Shown: one piece after another, positions 5,956-39,955 of the stretch
Position numbering within the stretch: position 1 is the stretch's first letter
Layout of the letters: every line of letters begins with the position of its first letter
Assembly: GCA_003665825.1 (NCBI GenBank)
Contig: QPFY01000009.1
Location: forward strand, 868,001-932,000
Reading direction: 5' to 3'
DNA length: 64,000 nucleotides
Origin: Microbotryum silenes-acaulis
Lineage: Eukaryota; Basidiomycota; Microbotryomycetes; Microbotryales; Microbotryaceae
Translations under genes and position numbers: made by a program
Notes under the pieces: model-generated
Told to the model about the DNA's origin: nothing
Database searches by the model: none
The model's input: only the letters and a program-made list of their open reading frames with translations

Positions 5956-6031
5956 AAAAAGAAGGAGACTGACTAGCTTGCGAACACTCGAACACCGCTG
6001 CTGGCGCCTTAGACCGCTCGGCCATATCTCC
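5956..6031 (-). ncRNA. tRNA-like Pol III cassette (copy 2)
   Basis: Identical to the cassette at 4371-4446, at the junction of the second and third 1585-bp units. Confidence 0.4.
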
Positions 6032-7540: not shown

Positions 7541-7616
7541 AAAAAGAAGGAGACTGACTAGCTTGCGAACACTCGAACACCGCTGCTGGCGCCTTAGACC
7601 GCTCGGCCATATCTCC
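7541..7616 (-). ncRNA. tRNA-like Pol III cassette (copy 3)
   Basis: Identical to the cassette at 4371-4446, at the junction of the third and fourth 1585-bp units. Confidence 0.4.
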
Positions 7617-9125: not shown

Positions 9126-9201
9126 AAAAAGAAGGAGACTGACTAGCTTGCGAACACTCGAACACCGCTGCTGGCGCCTTAGACCGCTCGGCCATATCTC
9201 C
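9126..9201 (-). ncRNA. tRNA-like Pol III cassette (copy 4)
   Basis: Identical to the cassette at 4371-4446, at the junction of the fourth unit and the truncated fifth. Confidence 0.4.
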
Positions 9202-9390
9202 TGTGGAGTATATCGTATACTTTTGGTTTCTCGTACGGATCGTCATGGTTTTCCGGGGTCGCTGGAGGGTCAAAAAGGGTCGGAAAGGAATGCAGCATCG
9301 GATTGTCCGCCCGCCGCCGCCGCCGCCGCCACTGCCGTTCTCGTTCCCGTCCAGTCCCGTCCGGTCCGGTCCGGGCACTACGACGGGCTC

Positions 9391-15465: not shown

Positions 15466-18400
15466 TTCGGACGTCCAAATCGCGACTCCTCTATCGCTCC
15501 TCGCGATTCATCTTCTCTCGTTCCCTCAGCCTTCGCTGGCCCTTAGACCGCTCGGCCATATCTCCCCCAGATGTGTACAGTGTGTTTTCAGTTGCTCGTA
15601 CGGATAGCAATCTTTTGGCAGTCGTGTTGGAACAAAACCGTTCATTCAACTGGGTTCCCTCATCCTCATCCTCAGCCTTCGCTGGCCCTTAGACCACTCG
15701 GCCATATCTCCGGTTGTGTATGTCGTATACTTTTGGTTTCCCGTACGAATCGTCAGGTTTTTCGCAGGTCCAAATCGCGACTCGTCTATCGGCGTTCCTT
15801 CATCCTTCGCTGGCCCTTAGACCGCTCGGCCATATCTCCCCCAGATGTGTACAGTGTGTTTTCAGTTGCTCGTACGGATAACAATCTTTTGGCAGTCGTG
15901 TTGGAACAAAACCGTTCATTCAACTGGGTTCCCTCATCCTCATCCTCATCCTCATCCTTCGCGGGCCCTTAGACCGCTCGGCCATATCTCCCCCAGATGT
16001 GTACAGTGTGTTTTCAGTTGCTCGTACGGATAGCAATCTTTTGGCAGTCGTGTTGGAACAAAACCGTTCATTCAGCTGGGTTCCCTCATCCTCATCCTCA
16101 TCCTCATCCTTCCCTGGCCCTTAGACCGCTCGGCCATATCTCCCCCAGATGTGTACAGTGTGTTTTCAGTTGCTCGTACGGATAGCAATCTTTTGGCAGT
16201 CGTGTTGGAACAAAACCGTTCATTCAGCTGGGTTCCCTCATCCTCATCCTTCGCGGGCCCTTAGACCGCTCGGCCATATCTCCCCCAGATGTGTACAGTG
16301 TGTTTTCAGTTGCTCGTACGGATAACAATCTTTTGGCAGTCGTGTTGGAACAAAACCGTTCATTCAGCTGGGTTCCCTCATCCTCATCCTCAGCCTTCGC
16401 TGGCCCTTAGACCGCTCGGCCATATCTCCCCCAGATGTGTACAGTGTGTTTTCAGTTGCTCGTACGGATAGCAATCTTTTGGCAGTCGTGTTGGAACAAA
16501 ACCGTTCATTCAGCTGGGTTCCCTCATCCTCATCCTCATCCTCATCCTTCCCTGGCCCTTAGACCGCTCGGCCATATCTCCCCCAGATGTGTACAGTGTG
16601 TTTTCAGTTGCTCGTACGGATAGCAATCTTTTGGCAGTCGTGTTGGAACAAAACCGTTCATTCAACTGGGTTCCCTCATCCTCATCCTCAGCCTTCGCTG
16701 GCCCTTAGACCGCTCGGCCATATCTCCCCCAGATGTGTACAGTGTGTTTTCAGTTGCTCGTACGGATAGCAATCTTTTGGCAGTCGTGTTGGAACAAAAC
16801 CGTTCATTCAGCTGGGTTCCCTCATCCTCATCCTCAGCCTTCGCTGGCCCTTAGACCGCTCGGCCATATCTCCCCCAGATGTGTACAGTGTGTTTTCAGT
16901 TGCTCGTACGGATAACAATCTTTTGGCAGTCGTGTTGGAACAAAACCGTTCATTCAGCTGGGTTCCCTCATCCTCATCCTCAGCCTTCGCTGGCCCTTAG
17001 ACCGCTCGGCCATATCTCCCCCAGATGTGTACAGTGTGTTTTCAGTTGCTCGTACGGATAACAATCTTTTGGCAGTCGTGTTGGAACAAAACCGTTCATT
17101 CAACTGGGTTCCCTCATCCTCATCCTCATCCTTCGCGGGCCCTTAGACCGCTCGGCCATATCTCCCCAGATGTGTACAGTGTGTTTTCAGTTGCTCGTAC
17201 GGATAGCAATCTTTTGGCAGTCGTGTTGGAACAAAACCGTTCATTCAGCTGGGTTCCCTCATCCTCATCCTCATCCTCATCCTTAGCGGGCCCTTAGACC
17301 GCTCGGCCATATCTCCCCCAGATGTGTACAGTGTGTTTTCAGTTGCTCGTACGGATAACAATCTTTTGGCAGTCGTGTTGGAACAAAACCGTTCATTCAG
17401 CTGGGTTCCCTCATCCTCATCCTCATCCTTCGCTGGCCCTTAGACCGCTCGGCCATATCTCCCCCAGATGTGTACAGTGTGTTTTCAGTTGCTCGTACGG
17501 ATAGCAATCTTTTGGCAGTCGTGTTGGAACAAAACCGTTCATTCACTGGGTTCCCTCATCCTCATCCTCAGCCTTCGCGGGCCCTTAGACCGCTCGGCCA
17601 TATCTCCCCCAGATGTGTACAGTGTGTTTTCAGTTGCTCGTACGGATAACAATCTTTTGGCAGTCGTGTTGGAACAAAACCGTTCATTCAGCTGGGTTCC
17701 CTCATCCTCATCCTCATCCTTCGCGGGCCCTTAGACCGCTCGGCCATATCTCCCCCAGATGTGTACAGTGTGTTTTCAGTTGCTCGTACGGATAGCAATC
17801 TTTTGGCAGTCGTGTTGGAACAAAACCGTTCATTCAACTGGGTTCCCTCATCCTCATCCTCAGCCTTCGCTGGCCCTTAGACCGCTCGGCCATATCTCCC
17901 CCAGATGTGTACAGTGTGTTTTCAGTTGCTCGTACGGATAACAATCTTTTGGCAGTCGTGTTGGAACAAAACCGTTCATTCAGCTGGGTTCCCTCATCCT
18001 CATCCTCATCCTTCGCGGGCCCTTAGACCGCTCGGCCATATCTCCCCCAGATGTGTACAGTGTGTTTTCAGTTGCTCGTACGGATAACAATCTTTTGGCA
18101 GTCGTGTTGGAACAAAACCGTTCATTCAGCTGGGTTCCCTCATCCTCATCCTCATCCTTCGCGGGCCCTTAGACCGCTCGGCCATATCTCCCCCAGATGT
18201 GTACAGTGTGTTTTCAGTTGCTCGTACGGATAACAATCTTTTGGCAGTCGTGTTGGAACAAAACCGTTCATTCAGCTGGGTTCCCTCATCCTCATCCTCA
18301 TCCTTCGCTGGCCCTTAGACCGCTCGGCCATATCTCCCCCAGATGTGTACAGTGTGTTTTCAGTTGCTCGTACGGATAACAATCTTTTGGCAGTCGTGTT

Positions 18401-21400
18401 GGAACAAAACCGTTCATTCAGCTGGGTTCCCTCATCCTCATCCTCATCCTTCGCTGGCCCTTAGACCGCTCGGCCATATCTCCCCCAGATGTGTACAGTG
18501 TGTTTTCAGTTGCTCGTACGGATAACAATCTTTTGGCAGTCGTGTTGGAACAAAACCGTTCATTCAGCTGGGTTCCCTCATCCTCATCCTCATCCTTCGC
18601 GGGCCCTTAGACCGCTCGGCCATATCTCCCCCAGATGTGTACAGTGTGTTTTCAGTTGCTCGTACGGATAACAATCTTTTGGCAGTCGTGTTGGAACAAA
18701 ACCGTTCATTCAGCTGGGTTCCCTCATCCTCATCCTCATCCTTCGCTGGCCCTTAGACCGCTCGGCCATATCTCCCCCAGATGTGTACAGTGTGTTTTCA
18801 GTTGCTCGTACGGATAGCAATCTTTTGGCAGTCGTGTTGGAACAAAACCGTTCATTCAACTGGGTTCCCTCATCCTCATCCTCAGCCTTCGCTGGCCCTT
18901 AGACCGCTCGGCCATATCTCCCCCAGATGTGTACAGTGTGTTTTCAGTTGCTCGTACGGATAACAATCTTTTGGCAGTCGTGTTGGAACAAAACCGTTCA
19001 TTCAGCTGGGTTCCCTCATCCTCATCCTCAGCCTTCGCTGGCCCTTAGACCGCTCGGCCATATCTCCCCCAGATGTGTACAGTGTGTTTTCAGTTGCTCG
19101 TACGGATAACAATCTTTTGGCAGTCGTGTTGGAACAAAACCGTTCATTCAGCTGGGTTCCCTCATCCTCATCCTCATCCTTCGCTGGCCCTTAGACCGCT
19201 CGGCCATATCTCCCCCAGATGTGTACAGTGTGTTTTCAGTTGCTCGTACGGATAGCAATCTTTTGGCAGTCGTGTTGGAACAAAACCGTTCATTCAACTG
19301 GGTTCCCTCATCCTCATCCTCAGCCTTCGCTGGCCCTTAGACCGCTCGGCCATATCTCCCCCAGATGTGTACAGTGTGTTTTCAGTTGCTCGTACGGATA
19401 GCAATCTTTTGGCAGTCGTGTTGGAACAAAACCGTTCATTCAACTGGGTTCCCTCATCCTCATCCTCAGCCTTCGCTGGCCCTTAGACCGCTCGGCCATA
19501 TCTCCGGTTGTGTATGTCGTATACTTTTGGTTTCCCGTACGAATCGTCAGGTTTTTCGCAGGTCCAAATCGCGACTCGTCTATCGGCGTTCCTTCATCCT
19601 TCGCTGGCCCTTAGACCGCTCGGCCATATCTCCCCCAGATGTGTACAGTGTGTTTTCAGTTGCTCGTACGGATAACAATCTTTTGGCAGTCGTGTTGGAA
19701 CAAAACCGTTCATTCAACTGGGTTCCCTCATCCTCATCCTCAGCCTTCGCTGGCCCTTAGACCGCTCGGCCATATCTCCCCCAGATGTGTACAGTGTGTT
19801 TTCAGTTGCTCGTACGGATAACAATCTTTTGGCAGTCGTGTTGGAACAAAACCGTTCATTCAACTGGGTTCCCTCATCCTCATCCTCAGCCTTCGCTGGC
19901 CCTTAGACCGCTCGGCCATATCTCCGGTTGTGTATGTCGTATACTTTTGGTTTCCCGTACGAATCGTCAGGTTTTTCGCAGGTCCAAATCGCGACTCGTC
20001 TATCGGCGTTCCTTCATCCTTCGCTGGCCCTTAGACCGCTCGGCCATATCTCCCCCAGATGTGTACAGTGTGTTTTCAGTTGCTCGTACGGATAACAATC
20101 TTTTGGCAGTCGTGTTGGAACAAAACCGTTCATTCAACTGGGTTCCCTCATCCTCATCCTCAGCCTTCGCTGGCCCTTAGACCGCTCGGCCATATCTCCC
20201 CCAGATGTGTACAGTGTGTTTTCAGTTGCTCGTACGGATAACAATCTTTTGGCAGTCGTGTTGGAACAAAACCGTTCATTCAGCTGGGTTCCCTCATCCT
20301 CATCCTCAGCCTTCGCTGGCCCTTAGACCGCTCGGCCATATCTCCCCCAGATGTGTACAGTGTGTTTTCAGTTGCTCGTACGGATAACAATCTTTTGGCA
20401 GTCGTGTTGGAACAAAACCGTTCATTCAGCTGGGTTCCCTCATCCTCATCCTCATCCTTCGCTGGCCCTTAGACCGCTCGGCCATATCTCCCCCAGATGT
20501 GTACAGTGTGTTTTCAGTTGCTCGTACGGATAGCAATCTTTTGGCAGTCGTGTTGGAACAAAACCGTTCATTCAGCTGGGTTCCCTCATCCTCATCCTCA
20601 TCCTTCGCTGGCCCTTAGACCGCTCGGCCATATCTCCCCCAGATGTGTACAGTGTGTTTTCAGTTGCTCGTACGGATAGCAATCTTTTGGCAGTCGTGTT
20701 GGAACAAAACCGTTCATTCAACTGGGTTCCCTCATCCTCATCCTCAGCCTTCGCTGGCCCTTAGACCGCTCGGCCATATCTCCCCCAGATGTGTACAGTG
20801 TGTTTTCAGTTGCTCGTACGGATAGCAATCTTTTGGCAGTCGTGTTGGAACAAAACCGTTCATTCAGCTGGGTTCCCTCATCCTCATCCTCATCCTTCGC
20901 TGGCCCTTAGACCGCTCGGCCATATCTCCCCCAGATGTGTACAGTGTGTTTTCAGTTGCTCGTACGGATAACAATCTTTTGGCAGTCGTGTTGGAACAAA
21001 ACCGTTCATTCAACTGGGTTCCCTCATCCTCATCCTCAGCCTTCGCTGGCCCTTAGACCGCTCGGCCATATCTCCCCCAGATGTGTACAGTGTGTTTTCA
21101 GTTGCTCGTACGGATAACAATCTTTTGGCAGTCGTGTTGGAACAAAACCGTTCATTCAGCTGGGTTCCCTCATCCTCATCCTCAGCCTTCGCTGGCCCTT
21201 AGACCGCTCGGCCATATCTCCCCCAGATGTGTACAGTGTGTTTTCAGTTGCTCGTACGGATAACAATCTTTTGGCAGTCGTGTTGGAACAAAACCGTTCA
21301 TTCAGCTGGGTTCCCTCATCCTCATCCTCAGCCTTCGCTGGCCCTTAGACCGCTCGGCCATATCTCCCCCAGATGTGTACAGTGTGTTTTCAGTTGCTCG

Positions 21401-24400
21401 TACGGATAACAATCTTTTGGCAGTCGTGTTGGAACAAAACCGTTCATTCAGCTGGGTTCCCTCATCCTCATCCTCATCCTTCGCTGGCCCTTAGACCGCT
21501 CGGCCATATCTCCCCCAGATGTGTACAGTGTGTTTTCAGTTGCTCGTACGGATAGCAATCTTTTGGCAGTCGTGTTGGAACAAAACCGTTCATTCAGCTG
21601 GGTTCCCTCATCCTCATCCTCATCCTTCGCTGGCCCTTAGACCGCTCGGCCATATCTCCCCCAGATGTGTACAGTGTGTTTTCAGTTGCTCGTACGGATA
21701 GCAATCTTTTGGCAGTCGTGTTGGAACAAAACCGTTCATTCAACTGGGTTCCCTCATCCTCATCCTCAGCCTTCGCTGGCCCTTAGACCGCTCGGCCATA
21801 TCTCCCCCAGATGTGTACAGTGTGTTTTCAGTTGCTCGTACGGATAGCAATCTTTTGGCAGTCGTGTTGGAACAAAACCGTTCATTCAACTGGGTTCCCT
21901 CATCCTCATCCTCAGCCTTCGCTGGCCCTTAGACCGCTCGGCCATATCTCCCCCAGATGTGTACAGTGTGTTTTCAGTTGCTCGTACGGATAGCAATCTT
22001 TTGGCAGTCGTGTTGGAACAAAACCGTTCATTCAACTGGGTTCCCTCATCCTCATCCTCAGCCTTCGCTGGCCCTTAGACCGCTCGGCCATATCTCCGGT
22101 TGTGTATGTCGTATACTTTTGGTTTCCCGTACGAATCGTCAGGTTTTTCGCAGGTCCAAATCGCGACTCGTCTATCGGCGTTCCTTCATCCTTCGCTGGC
22201 CCTTAGACCGCTCGGCCATATCTCCCCCAGATGTGTACAGTGTGTTTTCAGTTGCTCGTACGGATAACAATCTTTTGGCAGTCGTGTTGGAACAAAACCG
22301 TTCATTCAACTGGGTTCCCTCATCCTCATCCTCAGCCTTCGCTGGCCCTTAGACCGCTCGGCCATATCTCCCCCAGATGTGTACAGTGTGTTTTCAGTTG
22401 CTCGTACGGATAACAATCTTTTGGCAGTCGTGTTGGAACAAAACCGTTCATTCAACTGGGTTCCCTCATCCTCATCCTCAGCCTTCGCTGGCCCTTAGAC
22501 CGCTCGGCCATATCTCCGGTTGTGTATGTCGTATACTTTTGGTTTCCCGTACGAATCGTCAGGTTTTTCGCAGGTCCAAATCGCGACTCGTCTATCGGCG
22601 TTCCTTCATCCTTCGCTGGCCCTTAGACCGCTCGGCCATATCTCCCCCAGATGTGTACAGTGTGTTTTCAGTTGCTCGTACGGATAACAATCTTTTGGCA
22701 GTCGTGTTGGAACAAAACCGTTCATTCAACTGGGTTCCCTCATCCTCATCCTCAGCCTTCGCTGGCCCTTAGACCGCTCGGCCATATCTCCCCCAGATGT
22801 GTACAGTGTGTTTTCAGTTGCTCGTACGGATAACAATCTTTTGGCAGTCGTGTTGGAACAAAACCGTTCATTCAGCTGGGTTCCCTCATCCTCATCCTCA
22901 GCCTTCGCTGGCCCTTAGACCGCTCGGCCATATCTCCCCCAGATGTGTACAGTGTGTTTTCAGTTGCTCGTACGGATAACAATCTTTTGGCAGTCGTGTT
23001 GGAACAAAACCGTTCATTCAGCTGGGTTCCCTCATCCTCATCCTCAGCCTTCGCTGGCCCTTAGACCGCTCGGCCATATCTCCCCCAGATGTGTACAGTG
23101 TGTTTTCAGTTGCTCGTACGGATAACAATCTTTTGGCAGTCGTGTTGGAACAAAACCGTTCATTCAGCTGGGTTCCCTCATCCTCATCCTCATCCTTCGC
23201 TGGCCCTTAGACCGCTCGGCCATATCTCCCCCAGATGTGTACAGTGTGTTTTCAGTTGCTCGTACGGATAGCAATCTTTTGGCAGTCGTGTTGGAACAAA
23301 ACCGTTCATTCAGCTGGGTTCCCTCATCCTCATCCTCATCCTTCGCTGGCCCTTAGACCGCTCGGCCATATCTCCCCCAGATGTGTACAGTGTGTTTTCA
23401 GTTGCTCGTACGGATAGCAATCTTTTGGCAGTCGTGTTGGAACAAAACCGTTCATTCAACTGGGTTCCCTCATCCTCATCCTCAGCCTTCGCTGGCCCTT
23501 AGACCGCTCGGCCATATCTCCCCCAGATGTGTACAGTGTGTTTTCAGTTGCTCGTACGGATAACAATCTTTTGGCAGTCGTGTTGGAACAAAACCGTTCA
23601 TTCAGCTGGGTTCCCTCATCCTCATCCTCAGCCTTCGCTGGCCCTTAGACCGCTCGGCCATATCTCCCCCAGATGTGTACAGTGTGTTTTCAGTTGCTCG
23701 TACGGATAACAATCTTTTGGCAGTCGTGTTGGAACAAAACCGTTCATTCAACTGGGTTCCCTCATCCTCATCCTCAGCCTTCGCTGGCCCTTAGACCGCT
23801 CGGCCATATCTCCCCCAGATGTGTACAGTGTGTTTTCAGTTGCTCGTACGGATAGCAATCTTTTGGCAGTCGTGTTGGAACAAAACCGTTCATTCAACTG
23901 GGTTCCCTCATCCTCATCCTCAGCCTTCGCTGGCCCTTAGACCGCTCGGCCATATCTCCCCCAGATGTGTACAGTGTGTTTTCAGTTGCTCGTACGGATA
24001 ACAATCTTTTGGCAGTCGTGTTGGAACAAAACCGTTCATTCAGCTGGGTTCCCTCATCCTCATCCTCATCCTTCGCTGGCCCTTAGACCGCTCGGCCATA
24101 TCTCCCCCAGATGTGTACAGTGTGTTTTCAGTTGCTCGTACGGATAGCAATCTTTTGGCAGTCGTGTTGGAACAAAACCGTTCATTCAACTGGGTTCCCT
24201 CATCCTCATCCTCAGCCTTCGCTGGCCCTTAGACCGCTCGGCCATATCTCCCCCAGATGTGTACAGTGTGTTTTCAGTTGCTCGTACGGATAGCAATCTT
24301 TTGGCAGTCGTGTTGGAACAAAACCGTTCATTCAACTGGGTTCCCTCATCCTCATCCTCAGCCTTCGCTGGCCCTTAGACCGCTCGGCCATATCTCCCCC

Positions 24401-27400
24401 AGATGTGTACAGTGTGTTTTCAGTTGCTCGTACGGATAACAATCTTTTGGCAGTCGTGTTGGAACAAAACCGTTCATTCAGCTGGGTTCCCTCATCCTCA
24501 TCCTCATCCTTCGCTGGCCCTTAGACCGCTCGGCCATATCTCCCCCAGATGTGTACAGTGTGTTTTCAGTTGCTCGTACGGATAGCAATCTTTTGGCAGT
24601 CGTGTTGGAACAAAACCGTTCATTCAACTGGGTTCCCTCATCCTCATCCTCAGCCTTCGCTGGCCCTTAGACCGCTCGGCCATATCTCCCCCAGATGTGT
24701 ACAGTGTGTTTTCAGTTGCTCGTACGGATAGCAATCTTTTGGCAGTCGTGTTGGAACAAAACCGTTCATTCAACTGGGTTCCCTCATCCTCATCCTCAGC
24801 CTTCGCTGGCCCTTAGACCGCTCGGCCATATCTCCCCAGATGTGTACAGTGTGTTTTCAGTTGCTCGTACGGATAACAATCTTTTGGCAGTCGTGTTGGA
24901 ACAAAACCGTTCATTCAACTGGGTTCCCTCATCCTCATCCTCATCCTTCGCTGGCCCTTAGACCGCTCGGCCATATCTCCCCCAGATGTGTACAGTGTGT
25001 TTTCAGTTGCTCGTACGGATAGCAATCTTTTGGCAGTCGTGTTGGAACAAAACCGTTCATTCAACTGGGTTCCCTCATCCTCATCCTCAGCCTTCGCTGG
25101 CCCTTAGACCGCTCGGCCATATCTCCGGTTGTGTATGTCGTATACTTTTGGTTTCCCGTACGAATCGTCAGGTTTTTCGCAGGTCCAAATCGCGACTCGT
25201 CTATCGGCGTTCCTTCATCCTTCGCTGGCCCTTAGACCGCTCGGCCATATCTCCCCCAGATGTGTACAGTGTGTTTTCAGTTGCTCGTACGGATAACAAT
25301 CTTTTGGCAGTCGTGTTGGAACAAAACCGTTCATTCAACTGGGTTCCCTCATCCTCATCCTCAGCCTTCGCTGGCCCTTAGACCGCTCGGCCATATCTCC
25401 CCCAGATGTGTACAGTGTGTTTTCAGTTGCTCGTACGGATAGCAATCTTTTGGCAGTCGTGTTGGAACAAAACCGTTCATTCAACTGGGTTCCCTCATCC
25501 TCATCCTCAGCCTTCGCTGGCCCTTAGACCGCTCGGCCATATCTCCCCCAGATGTGTACAGTGTGTTTTCAGTTGCTCGTACGGATAACAATCTTTTGGC
25601 AGTCGTGTTGGAACAAAACCGTTCATTCAACTGGGTTCCCTCATCCTCATCCTCAGCCTTCGCTGGCCCTTAGACCGCTCGGCCATATCTCCCCCAGATG
25701 TGTACAGTGTGTTTTCAGTTGCTCGTACGGATAACAATCTTTTGGCAGTCGTGTTGGAACAAAACCGTTCATTCAACTGGGTTCCCTCATCCTCATCCTC
25801 AGCCTTCGCTGGCCCTTAGACCGCTCGGCCATATCTCCCCCAGATGTGTACAGTGTGTTTTCAGTTGCTCGTACGGATAACAATCTTTTGGCAGTCGTGT
25901 TGGAACAAAACCGTTCATTCAACTGGGTTCCCTCATCCTCATCCTCAGCCTTCGCTGGCCCTTAGACCGCTCGGCCATATCTCCCCCAGATGTGTACAGT
26001 GTGTTTTCAGTTGCTCGTACGGATAACAATCTTTTGGCAGTCGTGTTGGAACAAAACCGTTCATTCAGCTGGGTTCCCTCATCCTCATCCTCATCCTTCG
26101 CTGGCCCTTAGACCGCTCGGCCATATCTCCCCCAGATGTGTACAGTGTGTTTTCAGTTGCTCGTACGGATAGCAATCTTTTGGCAGTCGTGTTGGAACAA
26201 AACCGTTCATTCAACTGGGTTCCCTCATCCTCATCCTCAGCCTTCGCTGGCCCTTAGACCGCTCGGCCATATCTCCCCCAGATGTGTACAGTGTGTTTTC
26301 AGTTGCTCGTACGGATAACAATCTTTTGGCAGTCGTGTTGGAACAAAACCGTTCATTCAACTGGGTTCCCTCATCCTCATCCTCAGCCTTCGCTGGCCCT
26401 TAGACCGCTCGGCCATATCTCCCCCAGATGTGTACAGTGTGTTTTCAGTTGCTCGTACGGATAACAATCTTTTGGCAGTCGTGTTGGAACAAAACCGTTC
26501 ATTCAGCTGGGTTCCCTCATCCTCATCCTCATCCTTCGCTGGCCCTTAGACCGCTCGGCCATATCTCCCCCAGATGTGTACAGTGTGTTTTCAGTTGCTC
26601 GTACGGATAACAATCTTTTGGCAGTCGTGTTGGAACAAAACCGTTCATTCAACTGGGTTCCCTCATCCTCATCCTCAGCCTTCGCTGGCCCTTAGACCGC
26701 TCGGCCATATCTCCCCCAGATGTGTACAGTGTGTTTTCAGTTGCTCGTACGGATAACAATCTTTTGGCAGTCGTGTTGGAACAAAACCGTTCATTCAACT
26801 GGGTTCCCTCATCCTCATCCTCAGCCTTCGCTGGCCCTTAGACCGCTCGGCCATATCTCCCCCAGATGTGTACAGTGTGTTTTCAGTTGCTCGTACGGAT
26901 AGCAATCTTTTGGCAGTCGTGTTGGAACAAAACCGTTCATTCAACTGGGTTCCCTCATCCTCATCCTCAGCCTTCGCTGGCCCTTAGACCGCTCGGCCAT
27001 ATCTCCCCCAGATGTGTACAGTGTGTTTTCAGTTGCTCGTACGGATAGCAATCTTTTGGCAGTCGTGTTGGAACAAAACCGTTCATTCAACTGGGTTCCC
27101 TCATCCTCATCCTCATCCTTCGCTGGCCCTTAGACCGCTCGGCCATATCTCCCCCAGATGTGTACAGTGTGTTTTCAGTTGCTCGTACGGATAACAATCT
27201 TTTGGCAGTCGTGTTGGAACAAAACCGTTCATTCAGCTGGGTTCCCTCATCCTCATCCTCATCCTTCGCTGGCCCTTAGACCGCTCGGCCATATCTCCCC
27301 CAGATGTGTACAGTGTGTTTTCAGTTGCTCGTACGGATAACAATCTTTTGGCAGTCGTGTTGGAACAAAACCGTTCATTCAGCTGGGTTCCCTCATCCTC

Positions 27401-30400
27401 ATCCTCATCCTTCGCTGGCCCTTAGACCGCTCGGCCATATCTCCCCCAGATGTGTACAGTGTGTTTTCAGTTGCTCGTACGGATAACAATCTTTTGGCAG
27501 TCGTGTTGGAACAAAACCGTTCATTCAGCTGGGTTCCCTCATCCTCATCCTCATCCTTCGCTGGCCCTTAGACCGCTCGGCCATATCTCCCCCAGATGTG
27601 TACAGTGTGTTTTCAGTTGCTCGTACGGATAACAATCTTTTGGCAGTCGTGTTGGAACAAAACCGTTCATTCAGCTGGGTTCCCTCATCCTCATCCTCAT
27701 CCTTCGCTGGCCCTTAGACCGCTCGGCCATATCTCCCCCAGATGTGTACAGTGTGTTTTCAGTTGCTCGTACGGATAACAATCTTTTGGCAGTCGTGTTG
27801 GAACAAAACCGTTCATTCAACTGGGTTCCCTCATCCTCATCCTCAGCCTTCGCTGGCCCTTAGACCGCTCGGCCATATCTCCCCCAGATGTGTACAGTGT
27901 GTTTTCAGTTGCTCGTACGGATAACAATCTTTTGGCAGTCGTGTTGGAACAAAACCGTTCATTCAACTGGGTTCCCTCATCCTCATCCTCAGCCTTCGCT
28001 GGCCCTTAGACCGCTCGGCCATATCTCCCCCAGATGTGTACAGTGTGTTTTCAGTTGCTCGTACGGATAACAATCTTTTGGCAGTCGTGTTGGAACAAAA
28101 CCGTTCATTCAGCTGGGTTCCCTCATCCTCATCCTCATCCTTCGCTGGCCCTTAGACCGCTCGGCCATATCTCCCCCAGATGTGTACAGTGTGTTTTCAG
28201 TTGCTCGTACGGATAACAATCTTTTGGCAGTCGTGTTGGAACAAAACCGTTCATTCAACTGGGTTCCCTCATCCTCATCCTCAGCCTTCGCTGGCCCTTA
28301 GACCGCTCGGCCATATCTCCCCCAGATGTGTACAGTGTGTTTTCAGTTGCTCGTACGGATAACAATCTTTTGGCAGTCGTGTTGGAACAAAACCGTTCAT
28401 TCAACTGGGTTCCCTCATCCTCATCCTCAGCCTTCGCTGGCCCTTAGACCGCTCGGCCATATCTCCCCCAGATGTGTACAGTGTGTTTTCAGTTGCTCGT
28501 ACGGATAACAATCTTTTGGCAGTCGTGTTGGAACAAAACCGTTCATTCAGCTGGGTTCCCTCATCCTCATCCTCATCCTTCGCTGGCCCTTAGACCGCTC
28601 GGCCATATCTCCCCCAGATGTGTACAGTGTGTTTTCAGTTGCTCGTACGGATAACAATCTTTTGGCAGTCGTGTTGGAACAAAACCGTTCATTCAACTGG
28701 GTTCCCTCATCCTCATCCTCATCCTTCGCGGCCCTTAGACCGCTCGGCCATATCTCCCCCAGATGTGTACAGTGTGTTTTCAGTTGCTCGTACGGATAAC
28801 AATCTTTTGGCAGTCGTGTTGGAACAAAACCGTTCATTCAGCTGGGTTCCCTCATCCTCATCCTCATCCTTCGCTGGCCCTTAGACCGCTCGGCCATATC
28901 TCCCCCAGATGTGTACAGTGTGTTTTCAGTTGCTCGTACGGATAACAATCTTTTGGCAGTCGTGTTGGAACAAAACCGTTCATTCAGCTGGGTTCCCTCA
29001 TCCTCATCCTCAGCCTTCGCTGGCCCTTAGACCGCTCGGCCATATCTCCCCCAGATGTGTACAGTGTGTTTTCAGTTGCTCGTACGGATAACAATCTTTT
29101 GGCAGTCGTGTTGGAACAAAACCGTTCATTCAGCTGGGTTCCCTCATCCTCATCCTCATCCTTCGCTGGCCCTTAGACCGCTCGGCCATATCTCCCCCAG
29201 ATGTGTACAGTGTGTTTTCAGTTGCTCGTACGGATAGCAATCTTTTGGCAGTCGTGTTGGAACAAAACCGTTCATTCAACTGGGTTCCCTCATCCTCATC
29301 CTCAGCCTTCGCTGGCCCTTAGACCGCTCGGCCATATCTCCCCCAGATGTGTACAGTGTGTTTTCAGTTGCTCGTACGGATAACAATCTTTTGGCAGTCG
29401 TGTTGGAACAAAACCGTTCATTCAGCTGGGTTCCCTCATCCTCATCCTCAGCCTTCGCTGGCCCTTAGACCGCTCGGCCATATCTCCCCCAGATGTGTAC
29501 AGTGTGTTTTCAGTTGCTCGTACGGATAGCAATCTTTTGGCAGTCGTGTTGGAACAAAACCGTTCATTCAGCTGGGTTCCCTCATCCTCATCCTCATCCT
29601 TCGCTGGCCCTTAGACCGCTCGGCCATATCTCCCCCAGATGTGTACAGTGTGTTTTCAGTTGCTCGTACGGATAACAATCTTTTGGCAGTCGTGTTGGAA
29701 CAAAACCGTTCATTCAGCTGGGTTCCCTCATCCTCATCCTCATCCTTCGCTGGCCCTTAGACCGCTCGGCCATATCTCCCCCAGATGTGTACAGTGTGTT
29801 TTCAGTTGCTCGTACGGATAACAATCTTTTGGCAGTCGTGTTGGAACAAAACCGTTCATTCAGCTGGGTTCCCTCATCCTCATCCTCATCCTTCGCTGGC
29901 CCTTAGACCGCTCGGCCATATCTCCCCCAGATGTGTACAGTGTGTTTTCAGTTGCTCGTACGGATAACAATCTTTTGGCAGTCGTGTTGGAACAAAACCG
30001 TTCATTCAGCTGGGTTCCCTCATCCTCATCCTCATCCTTCGCTGGCCCTTAGACCGCTCGGCCATATCTCCCCCAGATGTGTACAGTGTGTTTTCAGTTG
30101 CTCGTACGGATAGCAATCTTTTGGCAGTCGTGTTGGAACAAAACCGTTCATTCAGCTGGGTTCCCTCATCCTCATCCTCATCCTTCGCGGGCCCTTAGAC
30201 CGCTCGGCCATATCTCCGGTTGTGTATGTAGTATACTTTTGGTTTCCCGTACGAATCGTCAGGTTTTTCGCAGGTCCAAATCGCGACTCGTCTATCGGCG
30301 TTCCTTCATCCTTCGCTCGCCCTTAGACCGCTCGGCCATATCTCCCCCAGATGTGTACAGTGTGTTTTCAGTTGCTCGTACGGATAACAATCTTTTGGCA

Positions 30401-32415
30401 GTCGTGTTGGAACAAAACCGTTCATTCAGCTGGGTTCCCTCATCCTCATCCTCATCCTTCGCGGGCCCTTAGACCGCTCGGCCATATCTCCGGTTGTGTA
30501 TGTCGTATACTTTTGGTTTCCCGTACGAATCGTCAGGTTTTTCGCAGGTCCAAATCGCGACTCGTCTATCGGCGTTCCTTCATCCTTCGCTGGCCCTTAG
30601 ACCGCTCGGCCATATCTCCCCCAGATGTGTACAGTGTGTTTTCAGTTGCTCGTACGGATAACAATCTTTTGGCAGTCGTGTTGGAACAAAACCGTTCATT
30701 CAGCTGGGTTCCCTCATCCTCATCCTCATCCTTCGCGGGCCCTTAGACCGCTCGGCCATATCTCCCCCAGATGTGTACAGTGTGTTTTCAGTTGCTCGTA
30801 CGGATAGCAATCTTTTGGCAGTCGTGTTGGAACAAAACCGTTCATTCAGCTGGGTTCCCTCATCCTCATCCTCATCCTTCGCGGGCCCTTAGACCGCTCG
30901 GCCATATCTCCCCCAGATGTGTACAGTGTGTTTTCAGTTGCTCGTACGGATAGCAATCTTTTGGCAGTCGTGTTGGAACAAAACCGTTCATTCAGCTGGG
31001 TTCCCTCATCCTCATCCTCAGCCTTCGCTGGCCCTTAGACCGCTCGGCCATATCTCCGGTTGTGTATGTAGTATACTTTTGGTTTCCCGTACGAATCGTC
31101 AGGTTTTTCGCAGGTCCAAATCGCGACTCGTCTATCGGCGTTCCTTCATCCTTCGCTGGCCCTTAGACCGCTCGGCCATATCTCCCCCAGATGTGTACAG
31201 TGTGTTTTCAGTTGCTCGTACGGATAACAATCTTTTGGCAGTCGTGTTGGAACAAAACCGTTCATTCAACTGGGTTCCCTCATCCTCATCCTCATCCTTC
31301 GCGGGCCCTTAGACCGCTCGGCCATATCTCCCCCAGATGTGTACAGTGTGTTTTCAGTTGCTCGTACGGATAGCAATCTTTTGGCAGTCGTGTTGGAACA
31401 AAACCGTTCATTCAACTGGGTTCCCTCATCCTCATCCTCAGCCTTCGCTGGCCCTTAGACCGCTCGGCCCTATCTCCGGTTGTGTATGTCGTATACTTTT
31501 GGTTTCCCGTACGAATCGTCAGGTTTTTCGCAGGTCCAAATCGCGACTCGTCTATCGGCGTTCCTTCATCCTTCGCTGGCCCTTAGACCGCTCGGCCATA
31601 TCTCCCCCAGATGTGTACAGTGTGTTTTCAGTTGCTCGTACGGATAACAATCTTTTGGCAGTCGTGTTGGAACAAAACCGTTCATTCAGCTGGGTTCCCT
31701 CATCCTCATCCTCATCCTTCGCGGGCCCTTAGACCGCTCGGCCATATCTCCCCCAGATGTGTACAGTGTGTTTTCAGTTGCTCGTACGGATAACAATCTT
31801 TTGGCAGTCGTGTTGGAACAAAACCGTTCATTCAGCTGGGTTCCCTCATCCTCATCCTCATCCTTCGCGGGCCCTTAGACCGCTCGGCCATATCTCCCCC
31901 AGATGTGTACAGTGTGTTTTCAGTTGCTCGTACGGATAACAATCTTTTGGCAGTCGTGTTGGAACAAAACCGTTCATTCAACTGGGTTCCCTCATCCTCA
32001 TCCTCAGCCTTCGCGGGCCCTTAGACCGCTCGGCCATATCTCCCCCAGATGTGTACAGTGTGTTTTCAGTTGCTCGTACGGATAACAATCTTTTGGCAGT
32101 CGTGTTGGAACAAAACCGTTCATTCAACTGGGTTCCCTCATCCTCATCCTCAGCCTTCGCTGGCCCTTAGACCGCTCGGCCATATCTCCCCCAGATGTGT
32201 ACAGTGTGTTTTCAGTTGCTCGTACGGATAACAATCTTTTGGCAGTCGTGTTGGAACAAAACCGTTCATTCAACTGGGTTCCCTCATCCTCATCCTTCGC
32301 GGGCCCTTAGACCGCTCGGCCATATCTCCCCCAGATGTGTACAGTGTGTTTTCAGTTGCTCGTACGGATAACAATCTTTTGGCAGTCGTGTTGGAACAAA
32401 ACCGTTCATTCAGCT
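15466..32415 (-). repeat. tRNA-Leu-half satellite array, about 107 type-A units
   Basis: Units of 146 bp (variants 140, 145 and 152) repeat head to tail. Length changes come mostly from two to four copies of a TCATCC hexamer. Read on the minus strand, each unit starts with GGAGATATGGCCGAGCGGTC and continues TAAGGGCCAGC. This equals the tRNA-Leu(AAG) 5' half through the 5' anticodon-stem strand, with one C deleted, and the A box is intact. The remaining ~110 bp are unrelated to the tRNA. They include a weak B-box-like GGTTTTGTTCC about 55 bp after the A box and the palindrome CGTACG. Counting unit starts from 15571 to 32335 gives about 107 A units. Single-base variants (GATAACA/GATAGCA, CAGCT/CAACT) recur in blocks, so higher-order structure exists. 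146 is not a multiple of 3, so the array is not coding. Confidence 0.95.
15712..15839 (-). repeat. Type-B satellite unit (128 bp), first of about ten
   Basis: It shares the tRNA-Leu-half head with type A but has a different body: minus strand ATGAAGGAACGCCG onward, ending near GTATACGACATACACAACC. The body matches the start of the 1585-bp unit (GTATACTTTTGGTTT, CGTACG, ATCGTCA on the plus strand). Other B units sit near 19.5, 19.9, 22.1, 22.5, 25.1, 30.2, 30.5, 31.1 and 31.5 kb, with one more near 40.6 kb. Each adds exactly 128 bp between neighbouring A units. Confidence 0.9.
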
Positions 32416-32513
32416 CATCTTTCATCTTTCATCTTTCATCCCAATCGCACTACCCTACCTCTGCAAACGTCAATACATCGAATACATCAACTGCTACACC
32501 AGCTATCGACCCG

Positions 32514-34508
32514 ATGTCCGACCAGGCACCGCCTGATCCGGGCCGCGGCCCTCCGGAGCCGGCAGCGACGGGACAACCACGTGGTGACGCGGGGGCGGAA
32601 GCCGATGCCGCCGAGGGACCAGCGAACCCCGGCCTAGCGCTGTACCAGGAAAAGCGTGATGAAGAAAAGAAGAGGAAAGAGGATGTCGCGAGAATCCTGA
32701 AGATGATCAGTGTCGAAGATGGCACACGCCAGGGCACCCGCATCCTTGTGCTCAAAGACGCACTCGGCTTCGGCAAGGACCGGGCCACCTCCCTGCGCTT
32801 CAGCGCACTCAATGCAACGAAACCAATTACCGACACGTCTGGTGCCGTTCTGGAAGTCACGTTCGAACACACCGGCGTGGCCACCGAACGCGAGAAGTCC
32901 GAGTTGTACTCGAAGGTGCTCCGTACCCTGTCGCCCGACACGTCGTTGTGTTTTAACCTGCCCGCAGGAGTTGTCCTCCCGCCCGAGCTCCAGAAATACG
33001 CTCCAATCATCCATGGAGTCGCACCGGAATCGATCATCCAAAGCGGTAACACCCGGTTCAAGTTCGTGGTGCGCTGCGCTAGCGCAGCGGCGCTCGACCA
33101 AGTCCACGACGCGGCGACCAAGATCGAGTGGAAACGCTCCTTTGCCCAAGTCCGCAAGCGCTTGGCGTTCGTCAAAAACGTCGTCGAACTGCGTTTCATT
33201 ATCAGTCCTGAGGCCGAATACACGAACGACGACCTCTGGAACAAACTGCAAGGCGTCGTCGCCAAGCTTACCGGGGACGGCCACAAGTGCGACTTGCTCC
33301 AACTCCAGCAGCCTCTAACGGTCGTTCAAGGCTCGTACCTCGTCGCTCGAGGAAACTACGCGGCCATCGTCCAGTTCGACGACGACGACCTGTTCAAGAA
33401 CAACGGTGCTCAACTTCGGCAGGTTCTACCGACGAGGATCGACCTTCGGGGACGACTCGCAACACTCACGCCCCTTCGCCACGACTACGAGGCCGAAGCC
33501 TCGTGCCGCCGATGCGGCTTTGTAGGCCACTCCGACAACTGCGTTCAAAAGCCGGTCCAGCGTCAGCAGGCCTCCCAGAAAAACAACAACAACCAAAGGC
33601 CCCAGGCCGAGCCCCAAAGCAACATCGAGCAAACCTCGACCCCCCAAAAACAACGCAGAGGTGATGTAGCCTCTCCCTCTCCCCCAATGTCTCCTGTCGC
33701 GTCCAAGCGTTCAAAGAAGAACGCATCTCCCACAAGGGACACTAACAACTCACCACGAGTCTACCCTACTCGTTCACAAAGCTCTACACCCATAGCATCC
33801 GCCCCTCGCGGTTTCATCGTCGCCGCAAACCCATTCGCAAGTCTGGCCGGCGACGTAGCCGAGGAGGCGCAGGAGGAGCCCGCTCAGGCCCTCGAGGACG
33901 ACGAGGACGCGATGAGCGTAGTCGAGGCACAGCTGGAACAACAGCAGGAAGTGCCGCCGCTGAAGCTTTCGGATCTGTCGGATCTGCAGGACCGCGGAGC
34001 GGAGGGGAACCAGGGGGAACACACGGAGACGAGTGACGCGGAAGAAGGGGAATCGCAGTCGGCCGAGACGGGGTCTGTGCCTGAGATTGTTTCGACGACT
34101 CCTGAGCATACCCCTGAGCTGACGCGCTCCCGATCGGCCAGTCACCATCAGCTTGATATGGACGGCCTTCCCGACGACTGGATGAATCGTGTGTCGGATC
34201 GCGAGCGCAAACAGGATGCTGGTCTATACGATGAGATCACCGAGTTGGACCGCACCCCGTCTGTGACCGGTTGGATGCCTTCGCCGTCTCCAGGTCCAGT
34301 GTTTGATCCCGAGCCCGAGCCCAAGCAGGAGGTGGACGAAGGAAGTTCCCAGGGTCTTCGCCGGTCCGAGCGTATCCAGCGTCTCACCAGCGTCGCGCGC
34401 ACATCGGACTGGAACGAATCGACTGCTGCGGACCCGCTCCCCTCACCCACATTCGGACCTATGTTGTCCATCAAGGGAGCTGCTGCTGCAACGAAGGCGC
34501 GATCGTAA
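32514..34508 (+). CDS. LINE ORF1, gag-like nucleic-acid-binding protein
   Basis: 664 aa from the ATG at 32514. The frame is also open upstream to an ATG inside the satellite (32337), which would add 59 residues of satellite origin; I prefer 32514 because it lies within the element. Residues 1-60 are Pro/Gly/Ala-rich, followed by a basic helix (about 45-65) and a globular region. One zinc knuckle sits at about 331-343 with spacing C-X2-C-X4-H-X3-C, one residue shorter than the usual retroviral type. The rest is a long acidic, disordered tail. ORF1 proteins of LINEs bind their own RNA to form the retrotransposition particle. The stop codon overlaps the ORF2 start. Confidence 0.85.
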   Translation: MSDQAPPDPGRGPPEPAATGQPRGDAGAEADAAEGPANPGLALYQEKRDEEKKRKEDVARILKMISVEDGTRQGTRILVLKDALGFGKDRATSLRFSALNATKPITDTSGAVLEVTFEHTGVATEREKSELYSKVLRTLSPDTSLCFNLPAGVVLPPELQKYAPIIHGVAPESIIQSGNTRFKFVVRCASAAALDQVHDAATKIEWKRSFAQVRKRLAFVKNVVELRFIISPEAEYTNDDLWNKLQGVVAKLTGDGHKCDLLQLQQPLTVVQGSYLVARGNYAAIVQFDDDDLFKNNGAQLRQVLPTRIDLRGRLATLTPLRHDYEAEASCRRCGFVGHSDNCVQKPVQRQQASQKNNNNQRPQAEPQSNIEQTSTPQKQRRGDVASPSPPMSPVASKRSKKNASPTRDTNNSPRVYPTRSQSSTPIASAPRGFIVAANPFASLAGDVAEEAQEEPAQALEDDEDAMSVVEAQLEQQQEVPPLKLSDLSDLQDRGAEGNQGEHTETSDAEEGESQSAETGSVPEIVSTTPEHTPELTRSRSASHHQLDMDGLPDDWMNRVSDRERKQDAGLYDEITELDRTPSVTGWMPSPSPGPVFDPEPEPKQEVDEGSSQGLRRSERIQRLTSVARTSDWNESTAADPLPSPTFGPMLSIKGAAAATKARS

Positions 34509-37500
34509 TGATTGACTTCATCATCATGACCTGGAACGTCAACAGGGGCTTCAATACCCCTGAACGACGTCGTCTGCTTCTTTCGTATTTCACTTCGCTC
34601 ACACCTCCCCCTTCTGCTATCCTTCTCCAGGAACACAATGTTCCTAAATCACGACAATCTCACATACGCCACGAGTACGCCCAGTCCCACCAGGGCGAGG
34701 CCTACTTTTCTCAACACTGCCTCACTTTGATTCCAAGCTCTTCTCCTCTTCTCGGTGGTCATCGTCGCACGCGTCAGTCTCTTGGCGGGCGCTTACTCGT
34801 GACCACCTTCGATGTGCGGGGTTCGACGGACGTCGTCAAACTCAACAATATCTACGCTCCGGTTCAACCCGCCGAGCGCCTCCTCTTCTTCACCTCCCTT
34901 CACTTTCGGGCGACCGTCTCCTCTCACATTCGGGTCATCGCGGGCGATCTCAACGACTGCCCTATCCCCGCGGTGGATCGAGTGCGACAGGTGGACCGCC
35001 CGAACACCCACCACTGGCCCGCGCTTATGTCTCGGCTCGACGGGGCGTACACGGATGCCATTCGGCTCATGCACCCACTGTCGCCGGCGACCACGCGCCC
35101 GCATCTCAGCAAGGACGGCCGGCTCATTTCGCGCGCGCGCATCGACTTTGTTCTGGTGCAGCGGCGACACGAGCGACGGATCGTTTCTGCTTCCACTCTG
35201 TACAATATCTCTCGATCCATGTCGGATCATCGACCGGTTACGGTCACATTTAGGCTGCGCGCAAGTGGTGCCGAGGTCGAAGCGGAGCTCTGCCTTCCCC
35301 AGGCGGCTCATTTTCTGACCCGCATCAACTCGTCGACCTTCAAACACGCCGAGTTTAAGGAGTTCGTCACTCCTCTCCTTGAGCAAGCACCGTCTGGGGA
35401 TCCGGTCGCGGACCTTCAGCGCGTACTCTCGGAGTCTCGGGTCCAAGCTCTCGAGCTGTCTCGGCGTCTGTTTCGGGAGCGCAACGCCCTCGAGATGATG
35501 CTGGTATCTCGACTGCAGGACATTGAGTCTCGTCGGGTGATGAGCCCCTTTGACGTCATCGACTGGACGAACACCCACGACGCTCTCACCAAACTTGTGA
35601 ACGAGCGAGCAAGGCAGTCCCGGATCAGGGCGCACGTGCCCGAGATTGCATCCGAGGAACGTCTCAGTCGTCCGGTTCATGCCAAACTGGCTGCTCGGTC
35701 CCGGGATGTGAAGTTTCAGAGTATCCGGCTCGCTGATGGCGAGCTCACCACTGACATTGAGCGCGCGCTCGAGCACACCCATTCTCATTTCCAGCAGCAC
35801 TACCTTGTCGAAGCGAAGGATCCGGAACAGGTCGTGACGATGCGGGATGAGCTCTTGGGACCCATCAGATCAGCAAGACCTTGTGACGACCCGCTTTCCG
35901 ACGCTCGCTTCCTTCGGCGCTTCTCGAATTCGCACGTCGACATTCTTGCCGAGCCCATCAGCGAGGCCGAGGTGCTCGCAGCGATTCGAACCACGCACGA
36001 AGGTCGATCTCCGGGTCCTTCAGGGGTCCCCTATGAGATGTATCGAGCCTGCCCCTTGCTTTGGGCCCCTCTCTTGACTCGAGCCTACAACGAGCTGATT
36101 ACTCGAGGCTCCCTTACTCCACAACAGAGCCAGGCGAATGTGCGCCTCTTGTTCAAACACAACAAACCTGGTGCAGCGCGGTGCGACCTCAAATCGTATC
36201 GTCCGATCACCTTGCGGGAATGCGACTACAAGATCTTCACCAAGGTCTACGTGGCTCGTCTGAACCGGATCCTCCCCGATGTTCTTCCGGCCGGACAGCA
36301 TGGGTTCGTCAAGGGGCGAAGACCAGCGGACGCGGCTTTGCATCTGAGGCTCCTGATCGACGAGATTAGGGGTCGTGGGGCAGAGTTCCCGACAGCAGCG
36401 CTCCTCTCCCTGGATCAGAGCTCGGCTTACGACATGGTCGAGCACGATTGGGTCTTTGCGGTGTTTGAGGCTCTCGGCGCGCCGGAATCTTTCCAGCGCG
36501 TCTTGCGGATGCTCTACAACGGCGAGACGTCCACAGCGCGGTACATTGTCAACGGTTTCCTTACCGAGACGGTGCGACTCCTGTGCGGTCTTGGCCAGGG
36601 CGATCCTCTCTCTTCTTCTGTCTGGGATGTGGTATTCCAACCCTTCCTTGATTCTCTCAGTCGACGCAACATTGCGCTGACTATCACTCTTCCGGAGCTG
36701 GCTCCTCGTCCGCAGACTCGATGCATCACCAATTTGGCGTTCGCGGATGACGCCGTCGTCGCTGTCGCTGGACCGGAAGCTATTGCTTCGCTCGAGGCGT
36801 TAGCTCGGGATTGGCGACTCGCGACGAACGGCCGTCTAAACACCGACAAAACCGTGGTGATGCCATTGGGCGCGACGTTGTGGGATCGCGCGGACTTGTC
36901 CAAACTGTCGTTCGTGGCACCGGACGAGTCTCTTCCCTGGATCGGTCTCCAGTTTGCGCCTGACGGCAACAACAGGCTGGGATTCCATGATCTTGAGCGA
37001 AGGGTCGATCGAGTGATTCTCTCGGTGCGCGACCGATGGATGACGCATCATACCCGGGCTTTCTATCTCAATCGCTACGGCATCTCCAAGGTGCTGCACT
37101 CTCTCTCCGCCGACGTACCGCCATCCGACGTGATCAAGGCGATCGAGCGCAAGCTTGCCGACTTTGTGAAGGGAGGACCGCGGCGCAGCGACTACAAGCA
37201 ATCGGTCGTCTTCACGGCACGGGCGCGAGGTGGTCTCAGCGTCGTGAGCATCCAAGATGTGGTGGATTCAGTCTCGGTACGGATTTGGGACGTGCTGGCC
37301 GGCGGGTCAACTGCGATTTGGAGCGATCTGGCTCGGAGTTCCATCCGGCGAGCGCTTCCGACCTTTGACTTTGCTACGGATCTGTGGACGTGGAGGAACG
37401 CCGACGCACCCCGGGAGCTACATCCCCGCTGGCGAGCGGTGCTCTCGGTCGCTGAACGCTACCCTGCCGTCGTCGATCCTGCCAAACTTTCGGTCTCCAA

Positions 37501-38548: not shown

Positions 38549-39935
38549 AGTAGACGGCGCTCCTCCCTACCCAGCCAAGAACCACAAACCAAAAACCAAA
38601 TAAAAATCACAAGTCCCCTTTCCCTCTTTCTCAATCTCCAAAATGTCTCCCAAACACGCCAGAATACTGAACCTGTTTTCTCTCGCTCTTTTTGCCATTC
38701 CTCCTCATAGGCTTCCGTACTCCCCAGGAGCCTCGGGTTCTTTGCGCCGGCGGGCATTGTCGCCCTTGGTTCGAGCTTCTGCCACATCACGATGACACAC
38801 AGCGAAAGCGGATCCCCTTGGCCCTCTCCTGGACTACGCCGTGAGTTTTCCACTCCTCTCAAGGGCCGGGTCTGTCTTCTCTTTCGGTCGAGCGACTCCG
38901 TGATCTCCTGTTCAAGGCCGGCACAAACTGCCTGCGTGGCTCGCCTCTCCTTGCTTTGCTGCTCGCTCGGAGTCGCGGCCGCGCGGCGGGTGACTCGGGT
39001 ACCGAACCGCCATACACATCCACACTCGAGCGAGGTCCCACACAATGACATCACCGTCGTGGGCCTCATGCTCCTTCTTTCCCCAGTATCTGCGGTGATT
39101 GGGAACCACCTGCACGTACAACGGGACTCGAGTGTGCGTTCCGAGATTGGGAGTACGCCGCAGGGAAGCGAGGCCCCTGCGGAAGGTATACCCCGCCTCT
39201 GGTCTCCAGCCGCGCGCCGGTGTTGTCGGCCACCCGCCCGCGCTGCAGACCGAGGCGTGTCCAATGGACTGTCACATGCTCCGTGACTTTCCCCGGAAAT
39301 CTCGGGATTGTGTGTTTTTGTGCGAAGTAGGCCTGTTTCGCAGTTGCAGTCATTGAAATGGGGGTGATCTGGGGTCGTGCGGTCGCGAGGGGGGGGCCGA
39401 CTTTGGTAACCGAAAAGGGGTTTGGAATCCGCGGTGCAGATCCAGCGCAGTTGGGTACAAGGGGTAGGTGATTGCTGCGGTCGCAGGGGGTTACATCCCC
39501 CCTTTGGACCACGTGAATCATTCGGATTGAGCGGGATGTTTGTGCCATCGGAGGCCTTGTTCGACGCGTGTCAAAGAATTAAGGGGCTTCAAGGAGTAGG
39601 GCGGTCTCAGGGGGGGTCTGAAGTCAAAAGATCGAAGAAGGTTCAACTGTACAACTATAATCGGATTCGCCTGTACAACACATGTACCACCACCAACAAT
39701 TCCTCCATCGTTTCCCGATTCCTTGTGTATTATCTTCAATCTTCCTTTCATTCGTCTCTGGGAGGGAGCAACCGTGGGTGGGGGGGACTTGAACTCGGAT
39801 GTATCGGGTTGGTCTGTTCTGCTAGTTACAACGCATCGAGCGGCGGTTGTGGTCATCATCGTGCATACTGGGCAGCATCTCCTTTAGTTCCGTAGGGGGT
39901 TTTCTCGTCTTGCAAATTAGCGATGAGTTTCATAC
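38549..39935 (+). other. LINE 3' UTR
   Basis: About 1.4 kb without a plausible gene. Near its end (39745-39830) is a module with GGAGCAACCG, ACTTGAACTCGG and TATCGGGTTGG that recurs diverged at about 49130-49200. On the minus strand this module contains an A-box-like TAGCAGAACAG (39824-39814) and a B-box-like GAGTTCAAGTCC (39796-39785). Confidence 0.6.
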
Positions 39936-39955
39936 AAAAAAAAAAAAAAAAAAAA
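39936..39955 (+). repeat. LINE poly-A tail
   Basis: Twenty A residues directly abut the resumed satellite at 39956, marking the 3' end of the insertion. Confidence 0.9.

Follow-up and report, generated by a model that had tools for sequence, protein, structure and literature searches.

How does the front half of a tRNA come to be repeated more than a hundred times in tandem, and what does a retrotransposon do in the midst of the repeats? Both questions are raised by a window of 64,000 nucleotides—the whole stretch of DNA analysed here—from contig QPFY01000009.1 of the fungus Microbotryum silenes-acaulis, where a large satellite carries in its units the 5' half of tRNA-Leu(AAG) and is interrupted by an L1-like long interspersed nuclear element (LINE). 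A sequence-only reading of the window had suggested that this satellite may have started from a tRNA half, or from a template switch at the anticodon, followed by amplification in tandem. Our analysis points to the gene rather than to its product: the satellite was probably formed at the DNA level, when the front of a tRNA-Leu(AAG) gene was amplified in tandem at a site favoured for integration by an L1-like LINE, an element that settles upstream of tRNA genes and tRNA-like sequences. Observed directly are the composition of the unit, an array adjoining the parent gene on another contig, the position bias of the LINE, and insertions into the arrays at a similar offset. The apparent tRNA-half satellite thus becomes a tRNA-gene-front satellite. 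In what follows C9 designates the contig of the window, C7 and C52 being the other contigs that carry halves; the features of the window are collected in Table 1.

The repeat unit and its parent genes

Two tRNA-Leu(AAG) genes possess the 5' end found in the satellite, the window gene and a gene on C7 (C7:1149363-1149480), both on the minus strand and both recognised by Rfam (46.2 and 46.1 bits respectively). ARAGORN, run with the bacterial code, called no tRNA at 2744-2861; read by eye, the arrangement CCAGC-TTAAGG-intron-GCTGG around the anticodon of this gene is that of a Leu(AAG) tRNA with an intron. As both genes pass Rfam with their 3' halves, they are not degenerate copies of the satellite, a possibility raised at the outset. 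No other tRNA was seen to match the halves better, though the halves were not aligned to every Leu and Ser tRNA gene.

The unit of the satellite consists of the tRNA-Leu 5' half, with its A box, and of about 112 bp of the DNA that lies upstream of the tRNA-Leu gene itself. The upstream flank of the C7 gene is identical at 109 of 113 positions to the next C7 unit, and at as many to an A unit of the window; moreover the C7 array starts at the gene without a break, the 5' half of the gene being its unit 1. The B unit resembles the flank of the window gene (50 of 61 alignment columns beside the tRNA; 88-89% over 84 nt including the half). The homology, which had been described for the first ~31 nt of the tRNA, therefore runs past the tRNA 5' end through the whole of this flank. 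The window gene, first put forward as the match, keeps that role for the B units, while the A units are better matched by the C7 gene. On the other hand the derivation from tRNA-Leu(AAG), the A box kept, the B box absent and the amplification in tandem were all borne out.

At the anticodon side, ungapped identity ends at CCAGC, that is at the 5' anticodon-stem strand where the sequence-only reading had placed the end of the homology; a gapped alignment goes further, with AAGG and TG matched over the anticodon loop. This edge of the unit may be the exon end or the intron start. The aligned A and B units miss one base of GGCGCC, and the outlying C unit misses a different one. By eye, no B box is found in the units and no tail at their ends.

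Retroposition of the tRNA-Leu 5' half, or of a short interspersed nuclear element (SINE), with subsequent tandem growth, would fit the end of the ungapped homology at the 5' anticodon-stem strand. It is contradicted by the 5' flank of the gene contained in the unit, which equally disfavours a tRNA half, or a template switch on the tRNA, as the starting point; besides, no dispersed copies are left by the motif count given below, and the unit ends have no tail, so that we hold retroposition for highly improbable. A tRNA-derived SINE was also rejected as a candidate: only a 5' half is present, without the promoter made of A and B boxes, its homology reaches no further than the anticodon loop or slightly past it, and it is not dispersed, the 265 motif matches lying in C7, the window and C52 in one orientation.

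Extent and homogeneity of the arrays

Within the window we counted 129 copies of a 23-base motif taken from the half: 5 lie at 2839-9179, 116 belong to the main array, 7 follow at 39993-40851 and 1 stands at 48846. The opposite strand has none; all 116 halves of the main array lie on the minus strand, as had been noticed. Signature A is present in 107 main-array units, the very number of A units estimated from the letters, signature B in 10, and one unit has both. Tandem Repeats Finder (TRF) delimits the array at 15800-32415 with a period of 146, 114.9 copies and a score of 26427. The interval 15466-32415, initially taken as the full extent, is only a part of the satellite sequence, which is also found at 39958-40938, 48787-48926 and 2830-9377. 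The part at 39958-40938 stops 62 bp upstream of a half, at the start of foreign DNA, and the A-type DNA of the outlying half at 48787-48926 starts at unit position 64, after poly-A. At the left edge of the main array, Rfam at E up to 5 over 9000-16200 gave no degenerate tRNA.

Searched genome-wide with up to 2 mismatches, the same motif gives 265 matches, all of them in a single orientation; the reversed pattern, used as control, gives 0 against 265, so that chance is excluded. Counted separately with this motif, C7 (45, in 80 kb fetched), the window on C9 (130) and C52 (90, in bases 1-20000) account for all 265: by this count no dispersed half is left, and the dispersed single copies proposed as a check of the sequence-only reading did not appear with this motif. 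On C7, LINE and array alternate to about 1.207 Mb in a higher-order repeat of roughly 17.26 kb. C52 shows the unit spacings found towards the end of the C9 array, and an identical junction with the LINE, apart from scattered one-base spacing changes or small indels; we infer that C52 is a duplicate or an alternative contig of the C9 locus. C52 and C53 are both 30053 bp long, perhaps by coincidence.

The units are very alike. Over 96 units of 146 bp the mean divergence is 0.57% in the half and 1.06% in the flank, overall about 1%, mostly due to four columns, and these 96 units give no clear signal of selection on the half within the array. Between unit types the half is almost unchanged and the flanks A, B and C differ; recombination within the half would explain this conservation as well as selection does.

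A LINE biased to the upstream side of tRNA genes

The main array stops at 32415 and the LINE starts at 32416; the array resumes right after the poly-A at 39940-39957. Neither this LINE nor its bias to tRNA genes figured in the sequence-only reading. The second open reading frame (ORF) of the element, ORF2, matches in Pfam Exo_endo_phos PF03372 (25.1 bits for a cut-off of 24.5) and RVT_1 PF00078 (75.2 bits), and its best solved relative is human L1 ORF2p (E 7.6e-28); ORF1 has no Pfam match. The best protein matches of the LINE, at 96% over 96% of the query and at 97% over 48%, are Microbotryum proteins, which suggests an anther-smut fungus; for the host gene TAF2 the best-scoring match is to Phenoliferia, at 67%. 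The copy number of the CATCTTT repeat at the LINE 5' end varies widely (L042, L046, C7:1150750-1151000).

The LINE 5' region has 35 strong matches, of which 8 were set aside as belonging to C7, C9 or C52 and one for not being a 5' end; the flanks of the remaining 26 5' ends were all fetched. They bear first on whether the array belongs to the LINE. In mouse L1, the 5' monomers are tandem repeats placed 5' of a LINE, and the main array runs precisely up to the LINE 5' end, as if it were made of promoter monomers of the 5' untranslated region (UTR) carried along with the element. Yet the array is lacking in 26 of the 26 flanks, so that the LINE does not carry it as a fixed part, in contrast with the mouse monomers, and it is also present after the LINE poly-A. 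This reading is hardly credible, and 5' UTR monomers were discarded.

The same flanks reveal where the LINE inserts. Thirteen of them have a tRNA called by ARAGORN upstream (L039-L043, L046, L048-L054), 5 a tRNA-like B box and 8 neither. In the thirteen, every tRNA is on the strand opposite to the LINE and points away from it. ARAGORN called 14 tRNAs in 20 sequences, and L045 was left out as belonging to the L044 cluster further upstream; L052 and L053 are the same sequence, and L049, L052 and L053 may be tRNA-like repeats. In L047, L055, L058, L059 and L060, a B-box match stands on the strand opposite to the LINE, 118-122 bp away; Rfam at E 0.5 makes no tRNA call there, and these boxes lie in dispersed repeats, copies of few repeat types. 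As 7 of the 26 flanks had been picked knowing that a tRNA was nearby, the fair subset is the other 19, with 7 tRNAs, 5 B boxes and 7 with neither. An opposite-strand B-box match within 450 bp is found in 16 of the 26 LINE flanks, versus 6 of 53 windows of 450 bp taken from the rest of the window.

Nine junctions join LINE and tRNA directly, at 58, 65, 65, 69, 69, 71, 75, 77 and 79 bp upstream of the tRNA, distances that carry an uncertainty of a few bases because the 5' repeat varies. L051 stands at 92 bp with A-rich DNA between, and in L039, L041 and L043 another element separates the LINE from the tRNA. Copies whose ORF2 is complete or nearly so, and which have no listed 5' end, behave comparably in two cases, L021 and L025 (5'-truncated) being at 57 and 70 bp from an opposite-strand ARAGORN tRNA; the third, L038, has no tRNA in its locus. 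A TATA-like word is present 31-49 bp upstream in 9 of 14 tRNA flanks.

As for the eight 5' ends with neither cue, L044 comes after a U2 snRNA match, L056, L057, L061, L062, L064 and L065 stand directly behind a poly-A run, and L063 shows no visible cue. In L044 (C20:348000-348280) the U2 snRNA match is full-length (Rfam 117.5 bits) and lies between the poly-A of one LINE and the 5' end of the next, an arrangement as in a U2-LINE template-switch chimera.

Retroelements inside the arrays

Counted from the 5' end of the half, foreign DNA starts on C7 at 62 bp (a short poly-A element with a LINE behind), 65 bp (a LINE directly) and 62 bp (another truncated element), and in the window at 86 bp (LINE) and 62 bp (at 40938). 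Behind the poly-A runs, array sequence starts again at positions 62, 63 (this one within a B unit), 64, about 65 and 86 of the unit. These offsets of 62-65 bp, once 86, are close to the LINE distances at tRNA genes, though the units have no B box. Were offsets uniform, the chance of 6 events out of 6 falling in 57-86 of 143 would be 8e-5, a figure to be taken as a guide only: it treats the six events as independent, its window was set after the data were seen, and it ignores that the C7 copies are partly segmental duplicates (of the about 17.26-kb period), hence fewer independent events. A short repeat ending in poly-A is found between tRNA genes or halves and LINEs at several places (L039, L056, C7:1150600-1150800, window 48600-48786); it may represent a SINE, or else another LINE truncated to its 3' end.

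Either the fungal LINE depends less on the B box, or the elements went in next to intact genes before the array grew. In the second case every element would have inserted close to an intact tRNA-Leu gene, 60-90 bp upstream of it, the array would have regrown between the gene and the insertion, and the halves would never have attracted any element; it is a variant, differing on one step, of the explanation that we favour. That the Dictyostelium element TRE5-A needs the B box, according to PMC5391098, and that array units have none, speaks for it, as does the C7 cluster, which starts at an intact gene. At the opposite, several different elements on C9 adjoin halves at 62-86 bp (32416, 40938, 48787), the gene at 2744 is the only tRNA that Rfam calls in the window, and regrowth is required after each insertion. 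Insertion beside intact genes only is, in our opinion, rather unlikely.

Proposed origin of the satellite

We propose the following course for amplification at a LINE hotspot. The LINE would read the Pol III initiation region and insert upstream of it, opposite to tRNA transcription; its position bias is observed, and such a mechanism could produce it. Nicking and repair at the LINE target, or replication trouble at the tRNA gene, might have led to the first tandem duplication, one end of which lay at the anticodon loop. The array would then have grown by unequal exchange, and exchange between C7 and C9 would have mixed A and B units. Retroelements would have landed in the units later, Pol III factors bound to the units or to the parent gene possibly steering them in.

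The LINE might also have had no part in the origin: ordinary local growth of a satellite by unequal exchange at the tRNA gene, with LINEs attracted afterwards, would fit the very homogeneous units (96 of 146 bp, with a mean divergence of about 1%), and the C9 gene has a second tandem array with no LINE in it. Both array loci nevertheless hold retroelements at a tRNA-like offset, and we regard growth without the LINE as a real possibility of somewhat less than even chance.

Several points weigh against a role of the LINE hotspot in the amplification. The initiating event is not seen. The 10 LINE insertions readable at both ends have flanks that share 0 to 6 nt (6 in two of them), so that unit-length target-site duplications are not the source of the units, and this candidate was abandoned. 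Where LINE copies sit at other tRNA genes, their fetched flanks contain no such array, and 8 of the 26 LINE 5' ends have no tRNA or B box in the fetched DNA. On C9 about 12.6 kb separate the array from the intact gene, and only on C7 does an array adjoin its parent gene. Finally the unit flank has no TATA-like word, nor has the C7 gene, and the C9 gene has one at 11-18 bp, a pattern that counts against standard TATA-led Pol III assembly on the units.

The first TTTT is placed 74 nt from +1 in 97 of the 116 main-array units, so that, given this position, the units could yield a short Pol III RNA. Pushed further, the half units devoid of B box might be live Pol III initiation sites that assemble enough TFIIIB to catch tRNA-targeting retrotransposons, a self-enlarging decoy that would spare the working tRNA genes and may emit RNAs of ~74-78 nt beginning like tRNA-Leu. 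Such a decoy seems an improbable, speculative extension.

Comparison with known systems

LINEs that target tRNA genes are described, in the papers on which these comparisons draw, from social amoebae (PMC5911963, PMC5006619). TRE5-A of Dictyostelium, of the L1 clade, has two ORFs with an APE-type endonuclease and a reverse transcriptase (PMC5911963), and TRE5 insertion takes place about 44-54 bp upstream of tRNA genes in opposite transcriptional orientation (PMC5911963). The fungal LINE likewise has an APE endonuclease and a reverse transcriptase in ORF2, with a second ORF upstream, and likewise inserts upstream of tRNA genes in opposite orientation and in a narrow window. It differs by its distance, 58-79 bp versus 44-54 bp, the likeness being one of domains and position, not of protein comparison; and, while TRE5-A is reported to need a B box, elements in the fungal arrays also adjoin half units that have none. 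A fungal element of L1 type with so similar a habit would add a further case, presumably an independent one, to the LINEs that target tRNA genes.

Tandem arrays with tRNA sequence are known from Entamoeba, whose tRNA genes form long tandem arrays (PMC2652664). The present arrays are similar in their length and tandem order, whereas the Entamoeba units hold tRNA genes and ours the 5' half and flank only. Like tRNA-derived SINEs and Helenus, which are LTR (long terminal repeat) elements bearing a tRNA and reported as absent from Microbotryum (PMC10886601), the satellite carries tRNA sequence; unlike them it has no dispersed copies (by motif), B box, LTR or tail, and it includes flank DNA. The putative centromeric tandem repeats of Microbotryum form a single region per contig (PMC5962589). 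By distribution, a centromere repeat is not supported for the half unit, which is present on three contigs only, C7, C9 and C52.

Among the titles and abstracts listed by searches of a library of open-licence papers, none concerned a fungal LINE targeting tRNA genes or such a satellite, and the excerpts of PMC5911963, PMC4469406, PMC10502011, PMC5006619 and PMC7175516 mention neither. What is new is a LINE of a fungus that favours the upstream side of tRNA genes, together with a satellite built from the kind of target it uses. As an experiment of nature, the array offers over a hundred tandem targets that have the A box and the flank without the B box; with these it can be asked on which part of a Pol III gene a retrotransposon relies for its recognition. 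The array also illustrates how a site that is safe for insertion may become a satellite.

Features of the window and the second tandem array

Table 1. Features of the 64,000-nucleotide window; positions count from its first letter.
Feature	Position	Strand	Description
Intact intron-bearing tRNA-Leu(AAG) gene, C9 copy	2744..2861	minus	Rfam RF00005, 46.2 bits, E 1.1e-6
Second tandem array	2830..9377	plus	208-bp block alternating with 1377-bp insert, period 1585; 5 blocks, 4 inserts
Main satellite	15466..32415	minus	116 tRNA-Leu 5' halves, each with its upstream flank; mostly 146 and 128 bp apart
L1-like LINE in the array	32416..39957	plus	CATCTTT repeats at 5' end, two overlapping ORFs, poly-A 3' end
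LINE ORF1	32514..34505	plus	663 aa; one CCHC-like motif by pattern
LINE ORF2	34307..38545	plus	1412 aa; endonuclease and reverse transcriptase domains
Array continuation past the LINE	39958..40938	minus	7 halves by motif (TRF 6.8 copies)
Outlying half	48787..48926	minus	A-type DNA on one side, third flank type C on the other

The copies of the second array are 100% identical, and its 208-bp block is the half and flank of the window gene. Much of the 1377-bp insert has relatives at 84-89% on C28 and C6, up to about insert position 1371; past this point the relatives diverge from the insert, though by eye a few bases resemble the tRNA edge, and insert and block may have been joined via short homology. 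The tRNA edge of this array is at the same place as in the 146-bp units, for which a second break and a recombination with an existing half are both possible.

Elsewhere in the window, 41440-47083 is occupied by a Copia element with RVT_2, integrase and gag domains and, near its ends, 297-bp repeats that are 100% identical. An 83-bp tandem repeat lies at 46704-46931, and TAF2 is a host gene of the window.

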